Below, in pieces: positions 6,041 to 57,934 of a stretch of DNA of 64,000 nucleotides. The DNA is taken from positions 21,962 to 85,961 of the IMG/VR virus record IMGVR_UViG_3300042883_000668, one strand, 5' to 3'. Source of the DNA: a virus. Under the pieces are notes generated by a model that ran no database searches, had not been told where the DNA came from, and was given only the letters and a program-made list of their open reading frames with translations. A program made the position numbers and the translations under genes. How positions within the stretch are numbered: position 1 is the first letter of the stretch; each line of letters starts with the position of its first letter.

Positions 6041-6113
6041 TATGATATAGCTCGTTGTGTATGAGCACCTGATATTAATCAGGAGGTAGTGGGTTCAATT
6101 CCCACTATCATAC
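6041..6113 (+). tRNA. tRNA-like gene with six-base anticodon loop, identity unassigned
   Basis: A cloverleaf can be drawn: acceptor 6041-6047 with 6106-6112 (7 bp, plus a possible G at 6040 with C6113), D stem GCTC/GAGC, anticodon stem CCTGA/TCAGG (6068-6072/6079-6083), T stem GTGGG/CCCAC with loop TTCAATT. The anticodon loop has only six bases (TATTAA), and the D loop lacks GG. I therefore cannot assign an anticodon with confidence; ATT is one reading. It may be a degenerate or non-standard tRNA. No CCA is encoded. Confidence 0.55.
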
Positions 6114-6118
6114 CTTAT

Positions 6119-50777: not shown

Positions 50778-52550
50778 TTATTCAAAAGACATTCCAGCAC
50801 CTGTATCACCACTTGTATTATAATAATTACTCATAAGTTCTGAATTTGTTATTTTATTATTTCTAGCTCTAGATGCTGCAGAAAATGATCCTGCATCACT
50901 TAAACCAATTGTTAAATCACCACTTTTTAATTTATATTCTTTTTTAATTCTTTCACCTTCTTCTCTAATTGCATTAGGAGAATTAGCAAAGTTTATGTAT
51001 CTAGTTTCACCTTTATATTTAAATATAAATATAACTGCTTGACCACTAGTTTTGTTATAATCATTTGGATCTTTAGCTATTGAAATAGGTATAGTAGCAT
51101 CACCTGTTTTTTTATCTGTCCAATAAGTATGACCTTCAAAATTACGATCTCTTGTCATTGTATTAAAGTTAATATCATCAAACTTTGTTTGTCTAATTAA
51201 AAACTTTTTAGAATTAGCAGAAACATCTTTTTTAGGAACTACTTTTAAATAATTACCATCTTTACGTTCTTCTAATACTCCAACATATTCTTCTGGTTTT
51301 TGATTTTTATAAAAGTTTTTAGTATTAGAATGTTGAAATCCTGTTATTGGATCTTCATCTAAAAAATGCATTAAAGTTCCTTTACCTGGAACTTCAGTTT
51401 TATTATTTCTATTTCTTCTTGTTGAATAAGTATTAATTTTTATAGGATCTGAATTACTAGCAGAATATCTAAATTTTAAATAAGGTGTTGAACTACTTGG
51501 ATTTAAATCTTCATATTTTTTAGTAACTAATTCTTTTTCTTTATTTTTAGTAGCTCTTTCTAAATAACTTTCAAATTTAGGTACATCATAAGGTGTTTTA
51601 ATTACTTCATCTGTAGCTCCTAATTTATTTAAAGCCGTACTTGTAAACATTCCATTTTCAGGTAAATTAGTATTTAAAAAATTATCTATAAAACCAGCTT
51701 CTTTTGCTTTATCAGTATTAATATTATCTATTAATTTTTTTCTAGTATTTAATAATGTAGAATATTTTTCAACTATTTTTTTATTTCCTTTATTTGCAGG
51801 ATTAGTTGCTTCATAATAAGCTTGTTGTAAAGCTTCATCTGTTTTTTTAACTAAATCACTGTTTGATATAGGTTTACCACTTTCTGTTTTTGAAATATTA
51901 TTTTCAATAAGTTTTTTAGTAATTTCTTTATTAGGAACTTTAATAACTGTTTTAGGTTTAACTTCTACTTTAGGTTCTACTTTAGTTTCTACTTTAGTTT
52001 CTACTTTAGGTTTAACTTCTAAATTAGGTTTAACAACATTATTTTGATTTGGTGTAGTTGCAGAAGTACTTGTTGATTGTAATGTAGAACTAGGTTCTTT
52101 ATTTAAATCTCTTAATACTGTAGGATCTTCTGTTTTTAAATGAGCTTTTGTAAAAGCATGATCAGGATCAACACCTACTTCAAGAAGTTTTGATTTAATA
52201 TCTCCTAATGTTGAAGTATTAGATATTACTGTAGAACTACCTGCAGATTTTAAATCAGTATTTAATCTTTCAATCATATGTTGAGTATATGATGCAGGAT
52301 TATTTTGATCTTCTTTAGGTGCAAATTTATGAATATATGCTTCTATTGTAGTTTCAGGTTTTACCCAACTTGAACCTCCATTAAGTTTTAAATGTATATC
52401 GTGATAAATATCATTATACGCATCTATAGGATTATCAAACCTTTTAATAGGATTAATAGACTTACCGTTAACTACAACTTTTTTTGTTAAATCTCTAATA
52501 CCACCAGTGTATTTTACTTCTTTAGGGGAGTTGCTGGTGTTTGTGACCAA
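50778..52550 (-). CDS. Virion protein, probably read by -1 frameshift from the upstream ORF
   Basis: An ORF of 590 residues with no ATG before its first conserved-looking domain (about 30-95: FDNPIDAYNDIYHDIHLKL, then YIHKFAPKEDQ). That domain resembles one often found in phage structural proteins. The middle (about 160-205) has a K-V-E-T/K-P repeat. The frame opens with TTG exactly after the heptamer GGGGGGT in the upstream gene. I therefore think it is the C-terminal part of a fusion of about 1310 residues; a TTG start is the alternative. Confidence 0.7.
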   Translation of the reverse strand: MVTNTSNSPKEVKYTGGIRDLTKKVVVNGKSINPIKRFDNPIDAYNDIYHDIHLKLNGGSSWVKPETTIEAYIHKFAPKEDQNNPASYTQHMIERLNTDLKSAGSSTVISNTSTLGDIKSKLLEVGVDPDHAFTKAHLKTEDPTVLRDLNKEPSSTLQSTSTSATTPNQNNVVKPNLEVKPKVETKVETKVEPKVEVKPKTVIKVPNKEITKKLIENNISKTESGKPISNSDLVKKTDEALQQAYYEATNPANKGNKKIVEKYSTLLNTRKKLIDNINTDKAKEAGFIDNFLNTNLPENGMFTSTALNKLGATDEVIKTPYDVPKFESYLERATKNKEKELVTKKYEDLNPSSSTPYLKFRYSASNSDPIKINTYSTRRNRNNKTEVPGKGTLMHFLDEDPITGFQHSNTKNFYKNQKPEEYVGVLEERKDGNYLKVVPKKDVSANSKKFLIRQTKFDDINFNTMTRDRNFEGHTYWTDKKTGDATIPISIAKDPNDYNKTSGQAVIFIFKYKGETRYINFANSPNAIREEGERIKKEYKLKSGDLTIGLSDAGSFSAASRARNNKITNSELMSNYYNTSGDTGAGMSFE

Positions 52551-54709
52551 CCCCCCTGGCTCTTTCCCACAGTTGCAGGTGGTTGAGCAACTACTCCGTT
52601 ATTTTTATATTTTTTTAATATTTCTTCAGGACCATCTAAATCTAAAGCATTTTTAAAACCAACCCAAGTTTCTTTTGTTGCTTTTGGATTACTTTTTAAT
52701 TCATTTATCATATTAAATAATTCACCTTTAATATCAGCATCTATATTTCGATCAGATGATATATCAGCTACTATATTATTTTTAAAAGTTGTAGGGTTTG
52801 AAGTATATGATTGACCAAAAACTTTATTTCTTCTTTCCATCATTCCTTTACCTAATAAATCATTATAAGATTCAGCAAAATATTCTGATTTTTTAGAAGC
52901 AACTGTAGGTGTATAAAAAGAACTATTGTAATTTTGATTTACAATTTGAGATACTTGAATAGGTTTTTTAATTGGTATTTTAAATTGTTCTATACCATCT
53001 CTTGTTGCAGTATAAGGTTGTATCATACCATTTCCTCCACTAGATTCTAAAAATAATTCTTGCCATTCATCTACCCATGGTGATCCAGTCCAATCTTCTT
53101 CATTACCATATTTTCCATTTTTTACTAATTCTGAATTTATTTGATCTTTAGTCATAATAATATAACCATCTAAAAATGCTTTATCTCCAACATTAGTTTT
53201 GTTATTACCATCTTTTAAGATAAAAGGATAATCTCCTGAAATTTTAAACATTTGTCCCATATCCTCAGCCTCTTTAACTGTTTTAACATTTAATGTTTTT
53301 AAATAATTATCTTTAAATTTAGGATCAGAAATATCTACACCATTTTCTTTAGCTTCTTCTGCAAGTAATTTAAAATTATCTGTAGTTTTTAAATAAGATT
53401 CTTTCATTGTTTCTACAGGTACATTTACAGTTTTAATTGTATTTTTACCATTAACTATTGTAGGACTTGTAACATAAATTTGATTTCCTACAATTTGATA
53501 AGTACTCTTAGGATCTTTTGCTTTTAATTTTTCTAAGAATGTTTCATTATTTTCTATACCTGTAGTCTTTTTAAGATTATTTAATTCGTTACCATAGGTT
53601 ACAACATTGTTAGCTTGAGGATTATCTGGAGTTACTTTAGCAAAGTTAACAATTGCTCCTTGACCATCTGTATTATCTAAAGTAACCATGTGACTTCCTG
53701 GAACATCATCAGGACCTTTAGCCCATCCTAAATGATCTAATTGAGGAGCTGCAACTTGAGCAGTTTTAGCATCAACTAATAATGCATATTGATTTACAAC
53801 ACCATCTTCATCATCACCTGTACCACCTGTTCTAGTTCTACCTGATGCATCTTTTGGTAATGCTGTTACTTTATCAGCTCCTAATTTTTGAATTTCTTTT
53901 TCATTATAATATTCACCTAAAAATGCATTAGCTGTAGCATCTAATTCTTGTTCAGGTGTCCAATCAAGTCCTTGTTTTGCAAATCTTGCTTTATCATACA
54001 TATAAGATTGAGTATTTAAAGCATTAGGATCTTGTTTAATATAATTAGCCATTACGTTTTTAACCTGAGCTCTTCTTAATCCTTCTGCTTCTACACCTTC
54101 TTGTAAAGTTTGAGTATGTTCTTTACCCATTTCATCAATCCAAGTTTTAGTAACAGGTTGTTCATAAATTCTAGAAATAACAGGTTTTATTTGAGCATAT
54201 AAAGGTTTTCTTTCTGCGTTTCTATCACCTGGTGCTACTACATTGTAATAACTTTCATCAAATGGTTGATCAACACCTAATTGTTTAACATTACCTTTTT
54301 CATCAGAATAATTTTGTATAACATAAGGATGATTAGGATCTGTTCTTTGTTTATTAACATCTTTAGTTATCGCAATATCTCTTTGTATACCTTGATATAA
54401 AGGATCATTTTGAACAGCACTAGCTATTTCTTTAACATCTTGAGTTAATCTACCATAGTTACCTGTTTGTTCAGCTCTAGTTTGAGCTTCTGCTAACATA
54501 GCATTTTTTTTAGCATTTAAAGCTTTAGCATGTTCTTGAGTAGCTAGTCCACCTTGAATATCAGTTTTCCACTTTGCTGCTTCAGCATCAGCAGTATCAT
54601 GTTCAAGTTTTACTTGTTCACCCATTTTGGTTATTGTATCAAAAGGTAGTGGTACATGCTGTGGAGTATACTCACTGGTACCTGTTGTACTAAATCTATT
54701 TATTCCCAT
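52514..54709 (-). CDS. Large virion structural protein
   Basis: A 731-residue protein (start MGINRFSTTGTSEYTPQHV) with an alanine- and glutamine-rich helical N-terminus (about residues 25-105) and a mixed middle part. The C-terminus ends SQGGWSQTPATPLKK in the zero frame. It lies in the row of giant leftward virion genes and is probably a capsid cargo or tail protein of crAss-like phages. A fraction of ribosomes would enter the overlapping 590-residue frame at the G run near its end. A TATATTTG element lies just upstream. Confidence 0.65.
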   Translation of the reverse strand: MGINRFSTTGTSEYTPQHVPLPFDTITKMGEQVKLEHDTADAEAAKWKTDIQGGLATQEHAKALNAKKNAMLAEAQTRAEQTGNYGRLTQDVKEIASAVQNDPLYQGIQRDIAITKDVNKQRTDPNHPYVIQNYSDEKGNVKQLGVDQPFDESYYNVVAPGDRNAERKPLYAQIKPVISRIYEQPVTKTWIDEMGKEHTQTLQEGVEAEGLRRAQVKNVMANYIKQDPNALNTQSYMYDKARFAKQGLDWTPEQELDATANAFLGEYYNEKEIQKLGADKVTALPKDASGRTRTGGTGDDEDGVVNQYALLVDAKTAQVAAPQLDHLGWAKGPDDVPGSHMVTLDNTDGQGAIVNFAKVTPDNPQANNVVTYGNELNNLKKTTGIENNETFLEKLKAKDPKSTYQIVGNQIYVTSPTIVNGKNTIKTVNVPVETMKESYLKTTDNFKLLAEEAKENGVDISDPKFKDNYLKTLNVKTVKEAEDMGQMFKISGDYPFILKDGNNKTNVGDKAFLDGYIIMTKDQINSELVKNGKYGNEEDWTGSPWVDEWQELFLESSGGNGMIQPYTATRDGIEQFKIPIKKPIQVSQIVNQNYNSSFYTPTVASKKSEYFAESYNDLLGKGMMERRNKVFGQSYTSNPTTFKNNIVADISSDRNIDADIKGELFNMINELKSNPKATKETWVGFKNALDLDGPEEILKKYKNNGVVAQPPATVGKSQGGWSQTPATPLKK
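52550..52556 (-). promoter_or_regulatory. Predicted -1 ribosomal frameshift site
   Basis: On the minus strand the upstream gene reads CAG GGG GGT TGG. G-GGG-GGT is a perfect X-XXY-YYZ slippery heptamer in the correct phase. After slipping, the next codon is TTG at 52550, which opens the 590-residue frame. A run of six G is very unusual in this AT-rich genome. CACCAG and CTGGTG downstream could form a weak stem; CCCCT downstream could also pair with the G run. Confidence 0.7.
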
Positions 54710-54733: not shown

Positions 54734-57700
54734 TTAAACTATTGCTTCTCCTGAATTATTTTGAGTACTAAAATTATCAATATATTTTCTAAATCCTGGT
54801 TCATTTTGGTATCTCCATTGGAACATCTTTAAAGTATCTTGATCCATATTATCTTGTCTACCTGATTTAGTCATCTTACCAAATGATTCACCCCCTTTGT
54901 GTATAGCTTGACTTCTAACATTTTCTAAAGCAGCAGCATTAGCAGCTCTAGCAACAGCTTGATCTTTCTTTATACCAGTATTAAATTGATTAGTTTGATT
55001 AGCAATTTGAGCATTAGCATTATCATATGTTTCACGAAGTCTACCAATTCTACTAGCAGTACCTGCTTTATTAGCACCTAATAAATTCATAGCTGCTCCT
55101 GCATTACCACCAACTAATCCTGGTATTGCTTTTCTAGTTTGTCTACCAATATAATTTTCACCTGCTATTGCTTGTGTAGGATCTAAGTATTTTGCAGTCA
55201 TTAAATCATAAGTTTCTAAAGGTTCATTCTTTCTAGTTAAATCATAAATATTACCTGCATTTTGTCCTAAGAAATTAGCACCCTGCATTGCTAATTTACC
55301 CCAATCAAAGTTTTTAGAATTAGGATTCATTTGAGTAAATGAATTATCTGGTATTCTAGCCATACTTTCATTTTCTCTTTTTCTTGATTCTTCTTTAGAA
55401 TACCAATCTGGCCCTAATGCATTAGTATAATCAGTTTCATATTTTGGTACAGGTACACCAGGAACAACAACACCTTCTCCTTCATCTGTCATTGCAGATA
55501 CATTAGGATTACTATATCCAGGATTTTTATTTCCTGTCATTTGATTAAAAGCTAAATTTCTTTGATTTTGTTCTTGGTTAAAAGCTCTTGATCTTTCAAA
55601 GTTAAAATTAGTAGGTAAATTACCATCACCTAATTTATATTTAGGCATTTGGCCACCGTATTTAAATGACATTCCACTTTCTTTAGTGTAAGCATCCATT
55701 TGTTCTTTCATAGTTCCTTTACCTACTTCATATGTAAATTTAGGAATTGCTTCTTTTTGAATTCTAAATGTTCCACTTCCTCCTTCTAAACCACCAACTT
55801 TATTAACAAGATTTACATTTTTTTCATCTATATTTCTATGTTTTTTAGGATCATATTTTTGAAAATATTTACTTACATTTTCATTACTTGTTCCTTCACT
55901 AACAGGAAGTATTTTTTCATTATATGTTTTAGCATCTACAACATATTGTTGACCACCATAAGTAATAGGCATAAATGTATTTTCTTTAGCTTTAGTTTTA
56001 CTTACACTAGAGAAAAAAGGATACCTAAACTGAGTTGTTTTACTTCCTAAGATTCTATCAACTGGTACATTTGGATCTCCTTGATTATAATACTTTTGAA
56101 CTTCTTCTATATCACCTAAACTAACAGATCTTTGTTTATCTGATAAACCTTTGTTATAATCTGAAATAGCTAAATTTGTATAATCATTAGCTAACTTTGT
56201 ATTTCCAGCTTTATTGCCAACAAAATTTTCTCCTGTAGGTAATTTATAAGTACTTAAAAATTTTTGAAAATCATTCCATTTACCAGTATCTATATTTGGA
56301 TTTTGAATAAGGTAATCTGGATTATTATAAACTTCAAATTTTGTATCTTTGTTTTTCATACTAGCTTCATCATATCCAGTTTTTCCATAAGAAGGTATAT
56401 CACTTACTTTTAAAGTACCATTTACAGGTGTTGTTCCATTAGAAGCAGTAGTTAGTGGATCTTCAGGCATATTACCACCATCATCATACATAGGTATACT
56501 ACCTTTAAAGTTATTGTAAGGATTAGTCATTGCAGGATAACCACCACCCATTGCATACATTGGATTACCTGCATTATCAGTATTATAAAAAGGTAGTTGT
56601 ACTCCACCCATTGCCATATAATTCATCATACCACCATATCTTGCCATTGGCATTTCACCTTGAAGTTGTTCAGGCATACCTTGAGATTGCATTTGTTGAT
56701 TATCCATTGGAGGTTGAGGTAACTCTCCTCTATTTATTGCTTTACGTTGTTCTTTATTAGCAATAATTGCATTTTGAATATCGTTAGCTTTATTTTTTAA
56801 TTCAGCAAAACCTTGTAATTTTTTATCAAAAACTAATGATAATAAATCACTACTATTTTTAGAATATCTATCTCCTTTTTCAGCTTTCTTTAAAATATTA
56901 TCTTTTAACTTTGTAATACTGTTTTCATCTTTAGTTAATTTTTGCATATACTCTGAAAAAGTTTCTCCTTTTTTATTAGCCATAAAAGAAGGTACTTTTG
57001 TTTTACCATTAACAATAGAACCTTGTTCCATTTTTATAGGTATACCTGTAGAACCATCAGGATTTACTTCATCGTGAGTAGAACCTTTTGTTTTATAAGT
57101 AGGTGTACCATATGGATTATTAGAAGCTAATTCAACTCCACCATTAGCAAATACTTGAGGAGGTGTATTTGAAGTAATCATTTCATTATCTTCAACTTCA
57201 GAATTAGGTTGTATATTCATACCACCCATTGCAAATCTCATTTGTCCACCATATTTCATTGCTAAAGGAGGTGTACCACTTGGTAAGTTACCCATAAAAC
57301 CAGCACCCATTCCTCCTGAACCTCCACCCATAAAACTATTAAGCATACCACCCATTTGACCATTCATATTTCCTTGATTCATATATTGATTATATTTACC
57401 TAAACCTTGTCCAAAACTAGAAGCATTAAAATTACCTGCTTGAGTTTGCATTCCAGAAGTCATAGGCGATCCTGCTTGACCATAAGCCATAGCACCAATT
57501 TGTCCTGCTGTATTTAAAGCCATACCTGCACCTTGAGCCCAATCTTTACTTTCATTACCTTTACTTATACCTGCACCTAATCCTTTACCAGTTTGACTAA
57601 TAGCTGCACCTGTAGCACCAGGATTAATAATAGCTCCACCAATTGCTCCAGCAGCATTACTAAATCCTCTAATAGAATCTTGTTCTCTCATTTCATCTTG

Positions 57701-57934
57701 AGTAGAATTACCTGCTTTTTGTAAAGCATAATATCCTTGATCAGTAAGTTGATCAGTAGCTCCCATAGTAACTGTATCTAACAATCCTTCTCCTACACCA
57801 TAAGCTGCAGTACCTGCTTGTTTTCCAACTTTCTTCATTTTTTTCTTATCATCCGCATCTGGAGTAAAGATAGTTTTTTCAAATCCTCCAAATTTATATT
57901 TAGGAGTATAAGGTATTTTTTTAGATTTCTTCAT
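54734..57934 (-). CDS. Glycine/methionine-rich virion protein
   Basis: Counted from the ATG at 57934 (MKKSKKIPYTPKYKFGGF) it has 1066 residues; an upstream ATG at 57994 adds an unlikely hydrophobic stretch overlapping the terminator of the previous gene. The region about 150-250 is rich in G, M, Q and N. A short motif, [YF]GG preceded by a basic residue and often followed by QM (MKYGGQM, RYGGMM, FKYGGQM, YKFGG), recurs through the protein. Composition and position suggest a flexible virion or ejected protein. Confidence 0.65.
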   Translation of the reverse strand: MKKSKKIPYTPKYKFGGFEKTIFTPDADDKKKMKKVGKQAGTAAYGVGEGLLDTVTMGATDQLTDQGYYALQKAGNSTQDEMREQDSIRGFSNAAGAIGGAIINPGATGAAISQTGKGLGAGISKGNESKDWAQGAGMALNTAGQIGAMAYGQAGSPMTSGMQTQAGNFNASSFGQGLGKYNQYMNQGNMNGQMGGMLNSFMGGGSGGMGAGFMGNLPSGTPPLAMKYGGQMRFAMGGMNIQPNSEVEDNEMITSNTPPQVFANGGVELASNNPYGTPTYKTKGSTHDEVNPDGSTGIPIKMEQGSIVNGKTKVPSFMANKKGETFSEYMQKLTKDENSITKLKDNILKKAEKGDRYSKNSSDLLSLVFDKKLQGFAELKNKANDIQNAIIANKEQRKAINRGELPQPPMDNQQMQSQGMPEQLQGEMPMARYGGMMNYMAMGGVQLPFYNTDNAGNPMYAMGGGYPAMTNPYNNFKGSIPMYDDGGNMPEDPLTTASNGTTPVNGTLKVSDIPSYGKTGYDEASMKNKDTKFEVYNNPDYLIQNPNIDTGKWNDFQKFLSTYKLPTGENFVGNKAGNTKLANDYTNLAISDYNKGLSDKQRSVSLGDIEEVQKYYNQGDPNVPVDRILGSKTTQFRYPFFSSVSKTKAKENTFMPITYGGQQYVVDAKTYNEKILPVSEGTSNENVSKYFQKYDPKKHRNIDEKNVNLVNKVGGLEGGSGTFRIQKEAIPKFTYEVGKGTMKEQMDAYTKESGMSFKYGGQMPKYKLGDGNLPTNFNFERSRAFNQEQNQRNLAFNQMTGNKNPGYSNPNVSAMTDEGEGVVVPGVPVPKYETDYTNALGPDWYSKEESRKRENESMARIPDNSFTQMNPNSKNFDWGKLAMQGANFLGQNAGNIYDLTRKNEPLETYDLMTAKYLDPTQAIAGENYIGRQTRKAIPGLVGGNAGAAMNLLGANKAGTASRIGRLRETYDNANAQIANQTNQFNTGIKKDQAVARAANAAALENVRSQAIHKGGESFGKMTKSGRQDNMDQDTLKMFQWRYQNEPGFRKYIDNFSTQNNSGEAIV

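Follow-up and report, generated by a model that had tools for sequence, protein, structure and literature searches.

The 64,000-nt window analysed here, from IMG/VR record IMGVR_UViG_3300042883_000668, belongs to a crAss-like virus. On its minus strand lies a junction at which the gene for a 731-residue virion protein overlaps a second open reading frame of 590 codons in the -1 frame (Table 1). Both ORFs are located where an earlier note on this DNA had placed them. ARAGORN reported one odd tRNA-like gene elsewhere in the window (6041-6114, plus strand); its anticodon is incomplete (tt), and the gene may be degenerate or unusual.

The 1579-residue product of a neighbouring gene matches the stabilization (muzzle) protein of crAss-like phages, and the gene order is that of crAss001 gp44 (muzzle), gp45 (cargo C1), gp46 (cargo C2) and gp47 (RNA-polymerase-associated). 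The 731-aa gene sits between the C1 gene and the RNA-polymerase-associated gene, the next gene being a giant ORF of 4407 aa. Its protein family matches cr10_1 gp33 (E 1.2e-8); sequence comparison with gp46 (hhalign E 0.33) and with phi14:2 g068 gave no match, and homology of the upstream gene to gp46 was rejected on that failure. The name cargo is therefore assigned here by position. Homologues of gp46 are reported to be missing from the Suoliviridae, the family of cr10_1, and in crAss001 both gp45 and gp46 have been estimated at up to 12 copies and are expected to form an ejection channel (PMC10172136). The 731-aa product is probably an internal virion protein that is injected.

The same arrangement is found in two relatives. 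In L001 (IMGVR_UViG_3300027732_000035) an upstream protein of 735 aa, 77% identical to that of the window, is joined by a -1 ORF of 925 aa, and in L003 (IMGVR_UViG_3300043438_001225) the upstream protein has 723 aa at 49% identity and the -1 ORF remains open to the contig end. Despite this upstream divergence both share the heptamers, the spacing and the -1 ORF with the window, and the G run with its phase, central to the earlier note, is kept in both; conservation thus rests on three sequences, with L001 identical to the window across the cassette. The protein encoded at the C1 position (54734-57922, minus strand) carries recurring glycine motifs of the YGGQM / AMGGM type, present also in L001, L003 and L010, and much of the sequence between these motifs differs among the four.

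Table 1. Features of the overlap and of the reading frames on either side, in window coordinates
Feature	Position	Strand	Basis or remark
0-frame gene, 731 aa, virion protein at the crassvirus cargo (C2/gp46) position	52514..54709	-	ORF, synteny, family match
-1-frame ORF, 590 codons from TTG to stop; a slip at GGGAAAG would add 594 residues	50778..52550	-	
Proposed slip heptamer GGGAAAG (G GGA AAG), in phase	52562..52568	-	conserved in L001, L003
Spacer AGCC (TCAC in L003)	52558..52561	-	
Predicted stem 1, 5' arm AGGGGGGTTG, contains the G6 run	52548..52557	-	
GGGGGGT, heptamer of the earlier note; possible secondary slip site	52550..52556	-	heptamer scan
Predicted stem 2, 5' arm CACCAG	52534..52539	-	
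Predicted stem 1, 3' arm CAACTCCCCT	52524..52533	-	
Predicted loop 3, A-rich, 16 nt, includes the 0-frame TAA stop (52516-52514)	52508..52523	-	
Predicted stem 2, 3' arm CTGGTG	52502..52507	-	unchanged in L003
First conserved domain, possibly lytic-transglycosylase-like (weak)	52086..52520	-	85% identical in L003 over 97 residues
Variable C-terminal part; last ~140-residue segment still related	50778..51950	-	-1 ORF of 590 codons here vs 925 in L001

Slip heptamers and a predicted pseudoknot at the junction

A -1 slip would join the two ORFs into one protein of 1310 residues, as the earlier note had it, and this length was computed for either of the two candidate slip sites. The predicted masses are ~146 kDa for the long form and 81 kDa for the short form. 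In the window, all ATG-initiated ORFs with 100 codons or more (18,093 codons together) were scanned for in-phase XXXYYYZ heptamers, and 192 were found. The -1 frame stays open for more than 60 codons at two of these, GGGAAAG at 52568 and GGGGGGT at 52556, both of which belong to this junction. The second is the heptamer on which the earlier note relied: CAG GGG GGT TGG does occupy 52558-52547, and G GGG GGT was checked to be in X XXY YYZ phase. The rarity claimed for six consecutive G holds as a count, since neither the window nor the full record of 85,961 b has more than one such run, but about 1.7 copies are expected from dinucleotide shuffles of the window, which makes the count not significant, and rarity by itself therefore proves nothing. 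Beyond chance expectation are the retention of the arrangement in two independent contigs and the long open -1 frame, which among the 192 heptamers is peculiar to the two at this junction.

The other in-phase heptamer, GGGAAAG, and a predicted pseudoknot that holds the G run are both absent from the earlier note. No second GGGAAAG exists in the window, and of the 192 in-phase heptamers this one is followed by the strongest fold. The site makes use of rare codons (GTG, 1.4% of Val; AAG, 10% of Lys). In L003 the codon before GGA is GAG (Glu, 6.1% of Glu codons) instead of Val and the spacer differs, and GGGAAAG is retained at equal distance. According to a review, G_GGA_AAG is highly shift-prone in E. 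coli and is the heptamer of HCTV-5 (PMC5009743). The distance from slip site to structure is 4 nt, or 5 nt if the outer A-U pair opens, which is at the short end: spacers of 5-9 nt are the most studied, and shorter and longer ones are also known (PMC5009743).

The simple hairpin downstream is by itself weakly significant (z -1.9 over 58 nt, with no significance over 111 nt), and a pseudoknot was therefore tested. The predicted structure is of the H type, with stem 1 AGGGGGGUUG/CAACUCCCCU (10 bp) and stem 2 CACCAG/CUGGUG, where CACCAG takes up 6 of the 14 bases in the loop of stem 1 and would pair with CUGGUG 16 bases past the stem, leaving loops of 8, 0 and 16 nt. Its energy score, a simple stacking sum, ranks first among 21,304 coding-strand positions in the window and was reached by none of 2,000 dinucleotide shuffles. 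The identical knot can form in L001 and L003, in the latter with an altered spacer and loop 3. The stems are invariant and show no covariation in these three sequences. Nearly every base of the overlap is fixed by dual coding, so that an unchanged stem 1 and an unchanged 5' arm of stem 2 do not count as separate evidence and were rejected as proof of RNA structure; the 3' arm of stem 2 falls beyond the overlap. The case for the predicted knot is instead its strength and placement. A search of Rfam gave no match. Scanning for the pattern GGGAAAG-N3-7-GGGGGGTTGGT recovered both known relatives together with three contigs of 48-60% GC, which were judged to be chance, their surroundings being unlike the frameshift locus.

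Because the strongest predicted structure of the window starts 4 nt beyond GGGAAAG and has the G run as its 5' arm, GGGAAAG is the more likely main slip site and the G run would belong to the stimulator. The earlier note had assigned the slip to G GGG GGT, and a slip mainly there, with the upstream GGGAAAG incidental, would agree with an in-phase heptamer that is invariant in three genomes and is written in rare codons (CAG, 6.2% of Gln; GGG, 1.7% of Gly). But a ribosome positioned on the G6 run would already have melted stem 1, so that just a weak downstream hairpin is left (-7.0 vs -16.4 kcal/mol), and by the usual rules of decoding the tRNA for GGT would pair badly after shifting to GGG. 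Such a slip also leaves the retention of GGGAAAG unexplained, whereas a slip upstream would make the G run a necessary outcome of dual coding alone. We therefore regard the assignment to G GGG GGT as unlikely and probably mistaken. The better candidate is G GGA AAG, which lies 12 nt upstream, and with the slip moved there the predicted junction peptide changes from SQGG-LVTNTS to ATVGK-EPGG-LVTNTS.

Start codons and selection in the -1 frame

The -1 frame has a single TTG, at 52550 inside stem 1, which is conserved in the three genomes, and in each of them the first ATG of this frame is codon 93, counting from the G run, or codon 97, counting from GGGAAAG. The relatives thus do not have the conserved early ATG of its own that the earlier note had considered for the second part. 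At other junctions of a heptamer with a -1 ORF, in the window and its relatives, an ATG stands 4-12 codons past the heptamer, as in ordinary overlapping genes. In the -1 frame dN/dS was 0.020/0.063 between the window and L001 (residues 15-190) and 0.094/0.19 between the window and L003 (residues 15-97), and substitution patterns indicate purifying selection on the first ~190 codons. The last 107 codons of the upstream protein compared before the overlap are far more diverged against L003 (dN 0.73).

An internal start by translational coupling, at the TTG or at a later non-ATG codon, which would make the 590-aa ORF a gene of its own, appears very improbable. Overlapping genes are common in phages and the TTG is there in all three genomes, but it directly abuts the G run, which leaves no space for a ribosome-binding spacer, ATG is the start codon of the other large ORFs in the module, and the protein is conserved from the overlap onward even though no ATG precedes codon 93. 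A single-base difference beside a homopolymer is a classic sign of an indel from assembly or sequencing, but the reading that such an error, or gene decay, split one continuous gene can practically be dismissed: the same frame relation is kept by both relatives (three contigs, with upstream proteins 49-77% identical), and the -1 frame runs uninterrupted through 590 codons in the window and 925 in L001, dN being below dS in its conserved part.

What the sequence data establish is the frame relation, the phase, the conservation, the predicted pseudoknot, the missing independent ATG and the purifying selection in the -1 frame. The principal claim of the earlier note, that a programmed -1 frameshift joins both ORFs, is well supported by the phase, the three-genome conservation, the lack of an upstream ATG and the purifying selection. 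We consider it highly probable that a programmed -1 frameshift cassette lies near the 3' end of this crAss-like cargo-position gene, with the slip at GGGAAAG and a pseudoknot as predicted.

The extension and its distribution

The fusion would add a module of 594 residues (in the window) or 929 residues to the cargo-position protein. Its first conserved domain has a weak match to phrog_2276 (tape measure; E 0.02), and the matched stretch of that family overlaps the SLT transglycosylase domain (PF01464) in SPbeta YomI. Pfam, direct profile comparison and fold searches were all negative as support for a transglycosylase, two AlphaFold models of the domain (pLDDT 54 and 61) gave no significant fold match in the PDB, and Pfam and NCBIfam searches returned nothing useful. 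A murein-hydrolase role for this domain is possible, at somewhat less than even confidence. Matches of the domain in Mycobacterium phage Mercurio and in Klebsiella, Acinetobacter and Enterococcus phages were set aside as chance because their E-values were 1 or more; Mercurio gp22 was read through. PDB sequence matches of A4 to AdoMet decarboxylase fell short of significance and disappeared once the queries were trimmed.

Past about residue 190 the window and L001 align poorly, except for the last ~140 residues (28% identity, E 4e-12). The C-terminal part thus differs between close relatives (window 50778-51950, minus strand; L001 7770-9949), whereas few differences are seen in the first ~190 residues, which are almost the same in both. 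This comparison indicates that modules were recently exchanged downstream of the proposed frameshift. A degenerate repeat, (E/K)VKPKVETKVETKVEPKVEVKPK, at ~51940-52030 (minus strand) joins the conserved first domain to the variable part, and the similarity between the window and L001 breaks down at about this repeat.

Through the neighbouring muzzle gene 13 loci were found. The junction is covered and the extension absent in five of them (L018, L020, L021, L022 and L027), where the counterpart gene is followed directly by the next large ORF; in the remaining loci the junction is not covered. The GenBank crAss-like phages examined have no annotated ORF between the counterpart and the next gene. 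A tblastn search of GenBank phages with both ORFs and the L010 counterpart returned no relatives, and scans of genome contigs with A2 and A5 found nothing. Because neither the five covered relatives nor the GenBank crAss-like phages have the extension, it is, as judged from these genomes, an accessory module of one lineage. One of the five, L018 (13945-16143), is 91% identical to the window in the C-terminus of the muzzle protein, but its protein at the 731-aa position is only 14% identical and has no -1 extension; from this contrast the gene at that position seems to have been exchanged as a block.

Comparison with known systems and a possible role

The gpG/gpGT slip of phage lambda uses the heptamer G_GGA_AAG. 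The proposed cassette resembles it in heptamer, in the -1 direction, in lying near the end of a late morphogenesis gene and in a long product that would be minor. It differs in that the lambda proteins act as chaperones of assembly and are not part of the mature virion, whereas the gene here is at a cargo position beside a polymerase-associated gene, and in the extension of 594-929 residues and the predicted pseudoknot. No Pfam or PHROG match to a lambda-type tail chaperone was found, and the next gene is the 4407-aa ORF.

Virion proteins extended by frameshifting are known from T3/T7 gene 10, Lactobacillus phage A2 and Listeria phages A118, A500 and PSA (PMC5009743). As proposed here, one virion gene in those phages yields a short and a C-terminally extended form, and pseudoknot stimulators are known there. 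The proteins concerned there form the capsid or the tail tube, and several of them bear short Ig-like extensions, whereas here a cargo-position protein would receive a module of nearly its own size with an end that varies between relatives. The genes for crAss001 gp46 and cr10_1 gp33 have the same position, but their genomes lack a frameshift extension. T7 gp16 is an ejection protein with a transglycosylase domain (PMC8954989). It would be a functional analogue, with no homology shown, if the extension domain is a murein hydrolase; its domain is N-terminal and on every copy, whereas the one described here would be C-terminal on a minority. Disrupted frames mentioned for Zeta-group polymerase genes (PMC7886860) are a different matter from the cassette. 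The type of signal is classical, and no programmed frameshift of this kind was found described for crAss-like phages in the open-access literature. We know of no frameshift-metered payload on a phage ejection protein.

We infer the slip, its efficiency, the fixed ratio of the two products proposed in the earlier note, the packaging of the long form and any enzymatic role; the course of events would be as follows. Most ribosomes would complete the 731-residue protein, while some would pause at the pseudoknot, where the Gly and Lys tRNAs could re-pair from G GGA AAG to GGG AAA, and the slipped ribosomes would continue in the -1 frame to yield the 1310-residue protein. The G6 run would act mainly as the 5' arm of stem 1 and may serve as a weaker second slip site. 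The long form would presumably be packaged through the N-terminal part it shares with the short form, so that the extension, made up of the conserved first domain, possibly a cell-wall hydrolase, and the variable C-terminal module, is present on some copies only; should the short form make multimers in the capsid, its long counterpart would be present there in limited copies. It is a tentative proposal, rated as less likely than not, that the frameshift sets the copy number of an ejected cargo with an exchangeable C-terminal payload (a putative cell-wall hydrolase plus a variable domain).

In the abundant crassviruses, the locus bears on how internal cargo is ejected. If the proposed frameshift is real, a single product is annotated as two genes by gene callers in genomes of this kind, and the locus offers a worked example in which an eye-catching homopolymer is probably an arm of the stimulator and not the slip site. 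It would also illustrate a way of setting the number of copies in which a domain is injected.
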